Of a DNA stretch of 64,000 bases, positions 10,956 to 58,236 are shown in pieces. The stretch lies in contig JAHELC010000001.1 of NCBI GenBank assembly GCA_024644405.1, positions 320,854 to 384,853 of the forward strand, written 5' to 3'. The notes beneath the pieces are model-generated. The model had not been told where the DNA came from, ran no database searches, and saw only the letters and a program-made list of their open reading frames with translations. Positions within the stretch are counted from its first letter, which is position 1. Each line of letters starts with the position of its first letter. The DNA comes from Nitrospinaceae bacterium. Its GTDB lineage: Bacteria; Nitrospinota; Nitrospinia; Nitrospinales; Nitrospinaceae. The position numbers and the translations under genes are program-made.

Positions 10956-11393
10956 TCAATACTGCTGTGGATACTATAGGAATCTTTAAAAATACTCAAT
11001 CTGGGTTTTAATGGCATACGGGCATTAAAGGGAACGTGAGGCATGCCCACGGAGTTTTATAAAGTGGGGATGATGAACCGGTTAACGTCGCGTTGTAATC
11101 CTGGCCCCGTACCGAGCGCTCGGAATCCTTGAACTCTTCCTAGATGCTTTTCAAGCGCTTTCCCGGTCCAAAAACCTGAAAAACATGTAACAATTCCGTT
11201 TCGGAGGGTGTGTGGCCGGGTGAACCCCCAGTTTTTCTGCTCAGGGAAAGGCTGGGAATTTCCACTATTTTGGTGCATCGGCCCGAAAAAAAAGAGTATA
11301 ATTTCCTCAACTTTTCCGATAGGTTATCAAACGAAAGATCGACCCCCGCGGGGTTCTATCACAGACAAATAAAAGCATACGAGAAACAGGGTT
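10956..11393. other. divergent intergenic region with moaA promoter element
   Basis: About 440 bases between the SulP gene and moaA. A consensus -10 TATAAT lies at 11297-11302 with no good -35, giving a leader of roughly 85 nt that contains a small hairpin (ACCCC/GGGGT near 11343-11355) before moaA. I looked for a molybdenum-cofactor riboswitch pattern in the leader and did not recognise one. The rest holds nothing I can name. Confidence 0.4.
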
Positions 11394-12407
11394 ATGAGCG
11401 AGGCAACTCAAAAAGAACGGCCTATTTTGATCGACGGCATGGGGCGGAAGATCGTCAACCTGCGTATTTCCGTTACCGACCGCTGTAACTTCCGCTGTAC
11501 CTATTGCATGCCGGCGGACAACGTGGAGTTCATGGACCGCGGGGAATTGCTGTCGTTTGAGGAAATCACCCAGGTGGCCCGCGTCGTATCCAAAATGGGC
11601 ATTTACCGCCTGCGCCTGACCGGCGGTGAACCTCTGCTGAGAAAAGACCTGCCCACTCTCGTCAAGATGCTGGACGAGCTGGAGGATATCGAGGATATCG
11701 CATTGACCACCAACGCCTTTTTCCTGACGGATCAGGCGGCGGCCCTGCGCGCAGCGGGCCTGAAGCGCCTCAATATCAGTCTCGACGCGTTGGATAAAGA
11801 CAAATTCACGCACGTCAACCGGCGCGATTGCCTGCAACAGGTGCTGGACGGCATTGCCGAATCCCGGAAAGTCGGATTTGACTCCATCAAAATCAACGCC
11901 GTCGCAGTTAAAAATTTCTCGGAAGATGAAATTCTGAAACTGGTTGAGATGGGCCGGGAGCAGGACCTCGAAATCCGCTTCATCGAGTTCATGCCGCTGG
12001 ACGCCGACCAGACCTGGGAGCGCGACAAAGTGCTGTTCGGCCACGAAATTCTGGACATCATCAATCAGAAATATGAGCTGGTGCCGATCAAGGATTCATT
12101 GGAGATCGGCCCTGCCAGCGAATATTCGTTCTCCGACGGCAAAGGGAAAATCGGTATCATCACCGCCGTCAGCAATCCGTTCTGTGACTACTGCAACCGC
12201 ATCCGCATGACGGCCGACGGCAAACTGCGAACGTGCCTGTTTTCTACCAACGAACATAATCTGAAAGAACTCATTCGCGCCGGCGCCACCGACTCGGACA
12301 TCGAGCAGAGAATCCGGGCCGCCCTGGTCTCCAAGGAGCCCGGCCACAAGATCAATCTCGACAGTTTCGAGCGCCCGGTCCGCGCCATGCACGCCATCGG
12401 CGGCTAA
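11394..12407 (+). CDS. moaA: MoaA, GTP 3',8-cyclase
   Basis: Radical SAM enzyme for the first step of molybdenum cofactor synthesis, converting GTP to 3',8-cyclo-GTP (then to cPMP with MoaC). At 337 aa it has the usual length. The N-terminal SAM cluster motif CNFRCTYC has cysteines at 31, 35 and 38. The second cluster motif NPFCDYCNRIRMTADGKLRT lies near residue 270, and the essential C-terminal Gly-Gly ends the protein (HAIGG). AGGG precedes the ATG. No other moa genes are adjacent. The last codons lie inside the first unit of a tandem repeat that continues downstream. Confidence 0.96.
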   Translation: MSEATQKERPILIDGMGRKIVNLRISVTDRCNFRCTYCMPADNVEFMDRGELLSFEEITQVARVVSKMGIYRLRLTGGEPLLRKDLPTLVKMLDELEDIEDIALTTNAFFLTDQAAALRAAGLKRLNISLDALDKDKFTHVNRRDCLQQVLDGIAESRKVGFDSIKINAVAVKNFSEDEILKLVEMGREQDLEIRFIEFMPLDADQTWERDKVLFGHEILDIINQKYELVPIKDSLEIGPASEYSFSDGKGKIGIITAVSNPFCDYCNRIRMTADGKLRTCLFSTNEHNLKELIRAGATDSDIEQRIRAALVSKEPGHKINLDSFERPVRAMHAIGG

Positions 12408-12582
12408 CTCCTCTAGCGAGGAGAAGCAAATTGCTGACCCTTAACAGCTAGAGAAACTCCTTGAGCGCAATTTAAAGTGAGCACTGGACCATCGGCGGCT
12501 AACCCGTCTAACGACGGGGAGAAATTGGCTGGCTGTTGACGGCTTTCGATGATCCCCATGCGCATTTCAAAGTAAACGCTGG
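12393..12582 (+). repeat. two 95-bp tandem units with a covarying hairpin, overlapping the moaA 3' end
   Basis: Unit 1 (12393-12487) and unit 2 (12488-12582) have the same length, and both begin with CCATCGGCGGCTAAC, the last codons and stop of moaA. A degenerate third start lies at 12583. Each unit carries a hairpin with the same geometry but different sequence: CTCCTC-TAGC-GAGGAG in unit 1 and CCCGTC-TAAC-GACGGG in unit 2. Each ends in a conserved tail (AAAGTGAGCACTGG and AAAGTAAACGCTGG). Pairing kept while bases change suggests selection on RNA or hairpin structure. It is not a CRISPR array: units are adjacent and too few. Confidence 0.75.
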
Positions 12583-12737
12583 CCATCGGCGGCTGATCCG
12601 TTTTCCGAACTTCCTGCGTAATTGCCCGCTTCCCTGCACTTTTGACCACTCCCCCGGCCGACCTCTTGATCTATAACTAATTGATTTTAAATAGATTTCA
12701 TAAATTTACATTTAAATAATCGGGAATCCGGTTTGAG

Positions 12738-12763
12738 GTAAATCTAACAATCCATAGATTTAC
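12738..12763. promoter_or_regulatory. inverted repeat GTAAATCT/AGATTTAC
   Basis: Perfect 8-bp arms (12738-12745 and 12756-12763) with a 10-base spacer lie in very AT-rich DNA about 30 bp before the extended -10 of the candidate sRNA. The position suits an operator or activator site for that promoter. No regulator is identified. Confidence 0.35.
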
Positions 12764-12793
12764 ATAAAATCTGTTTTTTCGGAAAAGTGGTGG

Positions 12794-12799
12794 TATACT
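12794..12799 (+). promoter_or_regulatory. extended -10 promoter element
   Basis: TGGTATACT (12791-12799) is an extended -10 (TG-N-TATACT) with only a weak T-rich -35 about 17 bases upstream. It would start transcription near 12806, giving a transcript of about 80 nt that ends at the intrinsic terminator at 12850-12886. Confidence 0.45.
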
Positions 12800-12805
12800 G
12801 ATTTT

Positions 12806-12886
12806 AATAAATCGGTAGATGTTATACCTTTTTACCTCCTCTTAAAGTGTCCGAGAGCAGACCCTCCTGCTCTCGGATATTTTTTT
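12806..12886 (+). ncRNA. candidate small RNA with anti-Shine-Dalgarno motif
   Basis: About 81 nt between an extended -10 promoter and a strong terminator, with no reading frame worth naming. The single-stranded-looking middle contains ACCTCCT (12834-12840), the exact complement of a Shine-Dalgarno AGGAGGT and the same as the 3' end of 16S rRNA. The terminator loop adds CCCTCC. A base-pairing sRNA that masks ribosome sites would look like this. It could instead be only the end of the moaA transcript or an attenuator before larE. Confidence 0.4.
12850..12886 (+). terminator. strong intrinsic terminator upstream of larE
   Basis: Perfect 11-bp stem TCCGAGAGCAG (12850-12860) with CTGCTCTCGGA (12867-12877), a six-base loop and a T-rich tail (12878-12886). 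It ends either the candidate sRNA or read-through from moaA, and separates both from larE. Confidence 0.92.
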
Positions 12887-12943
12887 GCCCCGATTTGTGT
12901 TAATTTGGTCCCACTTTCAAAACGTTCGATCCTGAAACCCCTC

Positions 12944-13768
12944 ATGGCTCTGCAAGAAAAATACGAGAAATTGAAATCCCTGTTCCGCGCAATGGGCAGT
13001 GTGGCCGTCGCTTATTCCGGAGGAGTCGACAGCGCCCTGGTGCTGGCGGTCGCGCATTCGGTGTTGCACGGCAAGACGCTGGCGGTGACAGGCAACTCGG
13101 CCAGCCTGGCACAACGGGAGCGGATCGCGGCCACGGACTTGGCGGCAGCACTCGGAGTCGAACATTGCGTCATCGATACGCAAGAAGTCGCTTCCCCCGA
13201 CTATGCGGCCAACCCGGTCAACCGCTGCTACTACTGCAAATCGGAACTGTACTCCAAACTGAAAGAAGTCGCCGACCAACGCGGACTGAAACATATCGTC
13301 AACGGCACCAATGTCGACGACCTGGGGGATCACCGACCCGGGCTCGACTCGGCACGTGAAGCGAACGTGCGCAGTCCGCTGTGCGAAGCGGGGTTTACCA
13401 AACAGGATGTGCGTGACCTGGCCCGGCAATTGGGACTGCCCGTGTGGGACAAACCGGCCATGCCCTGCCTGTCCTCGCGCATCCCTTACGAGCAGGCCGT
13501 CACCCCCGAAAAACTGGCGATGATCGAACAGGCGGAAGATGTCCTGATCGCCCTCGGCTTCACGCAATTGCGGGTGCGGCATTATGGCGAGTCGGCCCGC
13601 ATCGAATTGCCCTCAAAAGACCTGCCGCGCTTTTATCAGGAAAACCTGTTCGAGCCGGTACGTCTTCGGTTCTTGGAAATCGGTTTCCGGCAGGTGACGG
13701 TGGACCCGGAAGGATTCCGCTCCGGCCGTTTGAACGAGGCGGTGGCATCCGCCAAAGAGGAAAAGTAA
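12944..13768 (+). CDS. larE: LarE, ATP-dependent sacrificial sulfur transferase
   Basis: PP-loop enzyme that adenylates and then sulfurates the nicotinate-derived precursor of the nickel-pincer nucleotide cofactor, donating sulfur from its own cysteine in many members. The PP-loop SGGVDS lies at residues 25-30. CYYCKSELY (near residue 90) and the sacrificial-cysteine region PCLSSRIPYE are present. I use the ATG at 12944 (274 aa); an upstream TTG at 12905 would extend into the terminator region. No larA, larB or larC lies nearby, so its client enzyme is not in this window. The next gene starts two bases after the stop. Confidence 0.9.
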   Translation: MALQEKYEKLKSLFRAMGSVAVAYSGGVDSALVLAVAHSVLHGKTLAVTGNSASLAQRERIAATDLAAALGVEHCVIDTQEVASPDYAANPVNRCYYCKSELYSKLKEVADQRGLKHIVNGTNVDDLGDHRPGLDSAREANVRSPLCEAGFTKQDVRDLARQLGLPVWDKPAMPCLSSRIPYEQAVTPEKLAMIEQAEDVLIALGFTQLRVRHYGESARIELPSKDLPRFYQENLFEPVRLRFLEIGFRQVTVDPEGFRSGRLNEAVASAKEEK

Positions 13769-37222: not shown

Positions 37223-37335
37223 ACGTTGCCCGGGTAAATTGACATCCGTGAATTGCGTCTAAGGATCATCGCTTGCCGTGAACTGTCCGCCCGCTCCCCC
37301 TCAGGCTGGCCAGTGTATATTTTTTGCTTTTTTTG

Positions 37336-55436: not shown

Positions 55437-55668
55437 TCCGCAGGGCGGCGAACCGCCACGGGCCAGCGTGACGCTGGGCTCAATTTCTAAATTGCGCTCA
55501 GTTGTATTCTCTAGAAGTCAACACCCTGCCAGATCCCCCTCCGGGCAGGAGCTGGCGAAAGTAACTTTACAATCGCGCCATAACGCCTCAGCAAAGTTGG
55601 CTCTGCGCCGAGCAGGGTCGCCCAGAGAGGAGAGGGAGCCGGTCTTCCGGTTTCCTCCCCTCCCTCCT
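55437..55668. repeat. intergenic region after ftsZ with repeat unit C
   Basis: About 230 bp between convergent ftsZ and the DUF547 gene. It starts with a GGCGG/CCGCC hairpin and the palindrome CCAGCGTGACGCTGG (55463-55477), the inverted form of unit C. A G/U-tolerant hairpin (GGGAGCCGG near 55629, CCGGTTTCC near 55642) lies near the right end, without a clear T-run. No gene is visible. Confidence 0.65.
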
Positions 55669-58133: not shown

Positions 58134-58236
58134 CCGGCGAGCCGCCGGTGGCAATTCTTTTCCCTATTCCCTTTTCCAGATTCATCCGTGTTTATCTATG
58201 TTGATCTGTGGTTAATTTGGGTCCAGCGTCACGCGG
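58134..58236. repeat. composite intergenic repeat (units B and C)
   Basis: Unit B (CCGGCGAGCCGCCGGTGGCA, 58134-58153) begins at the stop of the parvulin gene. A segment resembling a widespread environmental repeat (ATCCGTGTTTATCTATGTTG, near 58183) follows, then unit C (GGGTCCAGCGTCACGCGGGT, 58219-58238), ending at the next gene. The arrangement copies that at 37.0-37.2 kb in part. Confidence 0.75.

Follow-up and report, generated by a model that had tools for sequence, protein, structure and literature searches.

Why should the last codons of a gene stand three times in a row ahead of the sequence downstream of it? This question is raised by moaA, the gene of the GTP 3′,8-cyclase, in a 64,000-nt stretch of Nitrospinaceae DNA analyzed as a whole (the window). 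The encoded MoaA is full-length, scoring 379.6 bits against TIGR02666 (cut-off, 284) with the profile matched to its last position. The final bases of the gene form a direct repeat, CCATCGGCGGCTAA, the second copy of which is identical to the first (14/14) and the third nearly so (13/14, ending in TGA instead of TAA). The matches flanking the two intervening units span 15 and 12 bases, and none of 100 shuffles reached either length.

A first-pass annotation, made from the sequence alone, had described two adjacent units of exactly 95 bp, each starting with the moaA end and carrying a hairpin, followed by a decayed third start. The gene end does recur where it was reported, and the two hairpins are as described, each unit opening with a perfect 6-bp stem and a 4-base loop (Table 1). 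The adjacent repeats are likewise real, but their spacings are 95 bp and then 94 bp, so that only the first unit (U1) has the stated length and the second (U2) is one base shorter. We consider it reasonably probable that the locus holds two members of a dispersed, double-hairpin repeat resembling REPINs or BIMEs, and that insertion at the gene end duplicated the end of moaA.

TABLE 1 Features of the moaA region and further family copies in the window
Feature	Position	Strand	Evidence or remark
moaA (GTP 3′,8-cyclase)	11394..12407	+	ORF; TIGR02666, 379.6 bits; stop TAA at 12405-12407
moaA 3′ end, first copy of CCATCGGCGGCTRA	12394..12407	+	Direct-repeat search
Hairpin H1 of U1, CTCCTC-TAGC-GAGGAG	12408..12423	+	0 nt from moaA stop
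U1, dispersed-family copy	12408..12488	+	R1 profile match at 12407-12479, 62.9 bits
moaA end, second copy	12489..12502	+	Direct repeat, 14/14 identical
Hairpin H1 of U2, CCCGTC-TAAC-GACGGG	12503..12518	+	
U2, dispersed-family copy	12503..12582	+	R1 profile match at 12503-12575, 52.3 bits
moaA end, third copy (stop TGA), read as native moaA end plus native downstream sequence	12583..12596	+	Match to relatives G008 and G002
Family copy	37237..37305	-	39.8 bits
Weak family copy	55482..55553	-	19.7 bits

The units belong to a dispersed repeat family

U1 and U2 are members of a dispersed, noncoding family of hairpin repeats of about 80 to 100 bp in this genus of the Nitrospinaceae, a family that includes the Nitrospina-type bacteria, major marine nitrite oxidizers. 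A BLAST search returned further matches of the moaA-end region elsewhere in the 2.98-Mb genome, and a sequence profile (A1/R1) built from 19 copies found at least 95 family copies at an E value of ≤0.01, with 150 of 607 candidates scored. Sixteen of the 95 lay inside an ORF of at least 100 aa, as called by a crude ORF caller. Across 41 genomes (this one and 40 relatives, denoted here by G numbers), the profile matched in 10, comprising all eight genomes of the genus, with 25 to 92 copies each, and two of the four other members of the family, with 5 and 3 copies. It had no match in the remaining 31, of which 29 represent other families of the order. The named relatives are mostly Nitrospina, Nitrospinaceae, or Nitrospinota MAGs. 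No gathering-level Rfam match was found in the window, and the hits at 11000-13500 were at chance level; literature searches on Nitrospina and repeats turned up no paper on this family.

The proposal that a genome search might expose the similarity as mere chance can therefore be dismissed, and we regard chance or an assembly artifact as a negligible explanation: the genome is a draft in 40 contigs, but the family has many copies in eight assemblies, and the same arrangement occurs in named GenBank MAGs. Since its copies are spread over many unrelated genes and tRNAs, the family is not specific to moaA, and the suggested regulatory RNA tied to Mo-cofactor synthesis was abandoned.

Pairing of the first hairpin is kept through paired changes

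An element starts with the H1 stem and runs through AGG(C/G) and a core of about 45 bases (about AACTTGCTGACCGTTAACGGCAAGCGATGATCCTTGGGCGCAATT) into an A/T-rich stretch, which a second hairpin, H2, often follows. H1 stems of at least 5 Watson-Crick pairs were present in 46 of the 95 copies, compared with 5.5% in shuffles, and the same test applied to two core stretches and an upstream stretch gave 5 to 8 of 95. Covariation was counted in 75 of 135 copies from this genome and its relatives, picked by loop motif and position without regard to pairing. The five inner pairs were each Watson-Crick in 63 to 67 of the 75, above the maximum of 1,000 shuffles, and all five were so in 54, which displayed 17 distinct stems. 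H1 is thus real at the family level, its pairing being kept through paired changes.

This bears on the earlier argument that equal pairing with different sequence implies a selected structure. The paired changes were borne out in the loop-anchored copies, but the two moaA hairpins alone could not show selection, so the covariation is established only by the genome-wide family. Folding both units, as the first-pass annotation had proposed, gave nothing significant: taken singly on either strand, U1 and U2 had no excess stability over shuffles (z = -0.80 and -1.18). RNAalifold likewise returned no consensus structure for 60 copies, because 5- and 6-bp stems and 4- and 5-base loops put H1 out of register, hence our use of loop-anchored counts. 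One covarying column pair (C-G in 64 and T-A in 14 of 95 copies) hinted at a long-range helix, AA.TTGC/GCAATT; we do not claim this helix, as it rests on that one pair in the formal count and could reflect two subfamilies.

In the H2 region, a stem of at least 6 bp was found in 40 of 95 copies (3% in shuffles; 9 of 95 in a control region), and one of at least 5 bp in 52. A few H2 types recur, the commonest being CCGGGCCTTGCCCGG, GCGGCGATTCGCCGC, and CCAGCGTCACGCTGG. The last, searched as CCAGCGTSACGCTGG, occurred in 29 of the 41 genomes, far beyond the genus and up to 85 times, whereas its reversed control occurred in one. By eye, the element ends look inverted, and in most units H1 and H2 are not copies of each other.

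Could mutation, not selection, have produced the covariation, through template switching (quasipalindrome correction) or the swapping of whole hairpin modules? We treat this as a tentative but serious possibility. At an SDR-type gene, where an element-type hairpin stands exactly after the TAA in all five genomes in which the gene was found (with the core truncated in G001 and G003), our genome and G002 share the core while their stems are wholly different (CTCCTC-TAGC-GAGGAG and CCGGCG-AGC-CGCCGG, respectively), as would be expected if entire hairpins were swapped. At another gene, C33:19657, a hairpin arm agrees with the native bases that follow the stop (GTC/GAC), and CCAGCG-TGA-CGCTGG also appears in the H1 position, making H1 and H2 types interchangeable. 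Yet orthologous tRNA-Ser and SDR sites retain the pairing in different species, which suggests some use, and decayed copies do exist, 15 of the 95 copies in our genome lacking H1.

Elements abut stop codons and serine tRNA genes

H1 could be placed in 80 of the 95 copies, and 67 of these had an upstream ORF end within reach. Eleven of the 67 began exactly 0 nt from the stop codon, 3 overlapped it by one base, and 4 lay at 1 to 3 bases, while no other distance held more than 2. Because 5- and 6-bp stems both abut, the contact with the gene is made by the stem base and not at a fixed distance from the core. The exact abutment is weaker in the relatives, where 25 of 40 copies had an ORF end, 2 of them at 0 nt and 3 at 2 to 4 nt from H1. 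Contact on the far (H2) side is weak, with 5 hairpins at 0 to 2 nt among 40 converging stops.

Serine tRNA genes gave a similar picture. Each of the 17 tRNA-Ser genes in the loci examined (four anticodons, six genomes) carried an element-type hairpin within 5 nt of its 3′ end, mostly at 0 nt, although the loci were mostly chosen for holding elements, so that 17/17 is not an unbiased rate. The contrast with other tRNAs was drawn within loci of the same kind: none of eight (four Arg, Asn, Asp, Phe, and Val) had such a hairpin at that spot, the Val gene having one at about +9. In two tRNA-Ser genes, the CCA itself is the start of the hairpin (CCAGCG..CGCTGG), and some have no CCA ahead of the hairpin. 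One locus (L121; G000:C32:252200-270900) holds a cluster of four tRNA-Ser genes, which differ in anticodon, and a tRNA-Arg gene, interleaved with many element copies, and several relatives in the genus have tRNA-Ser genes with elements too.

These placements bear on whether the hairpin is a 3′-end RNA module used by the host, such as a terminator or a stabilizer of mRNA and tRNA 3′ ends under selection, instead of a mobile repeat. We judge this possible but rather unlikely. It would account for the exact abutment to stops and tRNA-Ser ends, for the hairpin in five of five SDR orthologs, and for the hairpins in the window, which follow the stop at 0 nt in 3 and at 1 nt in 4 of 53 ORFs, compared with 0.36 per position further down; moaA apart, these ORFs were not picked for stop-adjacent hairpins. 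It fits less well with an H1 that lacks a T-run, when a strong terminator-like hairpin lies further down (12844-12890), or with a family that is genus-restricted and variable between orthologs. Nor are the copies confined to 3′ ends: by the crude ORF caller, 24 of 95 were convergent, 22 co-directional sense, 14 antisense, 12 divergent, 7 at edges, and 16 inside an ORF. H1 as an intrinsic terminator was rejected, since it is followed by AGG.AACTTGC with no T-run.

Two more hairpins at 0 nt were noticed in the window, one at 58134 and one after a minus-strand ORF ending near 2300 (CCGGCGAGCCGCCGG and TTCCCTCGGGGAA). In other Nitrospinota (L057, L061, L064, and L073), different hairpins stand directly after the moaA stop. 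Of 140 ORFs, four had a hairpin at 0 nt, and every one of these was moaA, which marks the moaA end as a recurrent hairpin site.

In the moaA mRNA, the hairpin starts at the first base after the stop codon, and H1 probably behaves there like Escherichia coli REPs near stops, as a barrier to 3′ exonucleases and a drag on the terminating ribosome. PMC12306157, citing an earlier study, describes a proposal that E. coli REPs lying no more than 15 nt from a stop codon stall that ribosome. In both cases, a palindrome follows shortly after the stop; unlike the REPs of that account, the Nitrospinaceae hairpin is often at 0 nt and also stands behind tRNA genes, which are not translated.

Orthologous sites and the origin of the gene-end copies

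Four sites were searched for orthologs, one of which (C16:86666) was too mixed to score. The element after the stop of C33:19657 was present in our genome, G004, and G007, truncated in G001, and absent from G002, G003, G005, and G006. At C32:261453, it stood at 0 nt in our genome and G001 and at +5 in G006, and was absent from G003, G005, and G007, the last having a small hairpin only. This presence and absence after the same stop among orthologs indicates that elements come and go at exact sites, for which mobility may be the cause.

At moaA itself, a single element directly follows the stop in G002, G003, and G007, and a remnant does so in G001. The expectation that relatives might lack both the second unit and the hairpin was accordingly half right: no relative examined has the second unit, but of the four other genus members with a moaA locus, three have one element at the exact spot and the fourth a remnant. 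Within the genus, we saw no moaA site that was cleanly empty. By eye, a deletion between two stretches of GGCTGA seems to have removed H1 at the G001 moaA end (L024/L050), so that the element core now supplies the stop codon TGA.

The third gene-end copy, previously taken for a decayed start, is more plausibly the original end of moaA. The sequence behind it matches what immediately follows the moaA stop in G008, which belongs to another genus of the Nitrospinaceae and has no match to the repeat family (score, 40; maximum of 200 shuffles, 36), and that following the element in G002 (49; shuffle maximum, 38). It had no significant match in the other five of the seven relatives (G001, G003, G009, G010, and G011). 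Position 12583 would then mark the native end of the gene, before which the elements entered with a copy of about 12 to 14 bases.

Plain tandem duplication of the gene end plus element, by slippage or unequal exchange with later divergence, is an unlikely origin for this arrangement, even though the 95- and 94-bp spacings recall it and family arrays elsewhere have similar periods, mostly 89 to 108 bp. The cores of U1 and U2 are 65% identical (family median, 62%), and the two rank 35th and 18th of 94 among each other's neighbors; they are not nearest neighbors and not sister copies. The noncoding gene-end copy nonetheless matches in 14 of 14 bases, for which the probability is about 0.002 at 65% per site, and a simple duplication leaves the third copy directly before native sequence unexplained. 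A second case of a copied gene end is the G006 SDR gene, where 20 bases of the gene end lie between two elements spaced 95 bp apart; because these units are nearly identical, that case looks more like tandem duplication.

Because U1 and U2 are not sisters and the third copy matches a relative's native end, we read the moaA locus as the outcome of element insertion, with the end of the gene duplicated in the process, which also makes a mobile-type element copying a gene end on arrival the best-fitting of the roles suggested at first. The element would be a short, palindromic, gene-less passenger of the REPIN/BIME type, spread by some enzyme. Copies do occur with H1 set directly against the 3′ end of a gene or tRNA-Ser. 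Insertion between the last moaA codons and the native downstream sequence would have duplicated about 12 to 14 bases of the gene end, and two insertions, or one insertion and a replacement, would leave two elements flanked by three copies of the gene end.

As a general rule, target-site duplication is unproven: direct repeats are clear at moaA, the G006 SDR gene has a related pattern, and most other copies have none. Flanking repeats at a P value of <0.05 were found for 11 of 95 copies in our genome and 9 of 52 in relatives, mostly in arrays or the tRNA-Ser cluster. Of the 23 tandem pairs inspected, only those at moaA and the G006 SDR gene had gene-end copies proper; a further direct repeat, at L171, was set aside once inspection showed it to be an array of a variant from another genus and not a gene end.

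Mobilizing enzymes and known palindromic repeats

No Y1 transposase (Y1_Tnp, PF01797; RAYT) was found in our genome, which is 95.84% complete. A Y1 gene was present in two of the eight genomes of the genus, with no family match in either locus. A RAYT as the mover is not supported. Reverse transcriptase (RVT_1) was found in none of the eight. One of the Y1 genes, of 330 aa in G002 (L208; G002:C17), is bounded by inverted repeats of its own (AAGGGGTCAAGTCTC...) and, by eye, is inserted in sequence resembling an element copy.

Short palindromic repeats are a known general kind, and what is unusual here is the exact joining to gene and tRNA-Ser ends together with the gene-end copies. Mitochondrial double-hairpin elements and GC clusters are mobile double hairpins of variable sequence and kept structure, comparable in how they work only, as they belong to different genomes; integron attC sites also come after stop codons. 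REPINs and BIMEs, as outlined in PMC3116915, are REP doublets with RAYT transposases. They share with the Nitrospinaceae element a noncoding length of about 70 to 110 bp, many intergenic copies, in many units two end hairpins, tandem arrays, and the lack of a gene of their own. In contrast to that outline (PMC3116915), the Nitrospinaceae element lacks a GTAG or CGTC tag at the foot of its hairpin, its own genome has no Y1 transposase, its hairpin sequence varies freely, and it abuts stops and tRNA-Ser genes exactly, with copies of the gene end at moaA. GTAG lay within 6 nt of H1 in 3 of 80 copies and CGTC in 1; because such tags are rare and Y1 is missing from our genome, the element works like a REPIN but is not classed as one. 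CGTC REPs and rickettsial palindromic elements, in the account given by PMC3733652, are palindromic repeats likewise without a known dedicated transposase, but they differ in sequence, tag, and layout.

A bolder version of the insertion reading, which we find doubtful, is that an undescribed route, using neither a Y1 transposase nor a reverse transcriptase, joins the structured element of about 80 bases precisely to functional 3′ ends (for a gene, the first base past its stop codon; for tRNA-Ser, the CCA/discriminator end), copies 12 to 20 bases of the gene end, and recognizes the hairpin and not its sequence. With hairpins at 0 nt from stops and from the ends of tRNA-Ser genes, whose stems change without losing their pairing, two questions become testable: by what means short palindromic repeats spread where RAYTs are lacking and what effect a hairpin has when it starts at the first base behind a stop codon.

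Between the moaA elements and larE, the terminator-like hairpin mentioned above, which has a T-run (z = -8.0), is preceded by a CCTCCTC motif (12800-12890). A similar motif plus terminator was matched by regular expression in 6 of 27 relative loci, and the pair may represent a small RNA or a conserved leader or terminator.
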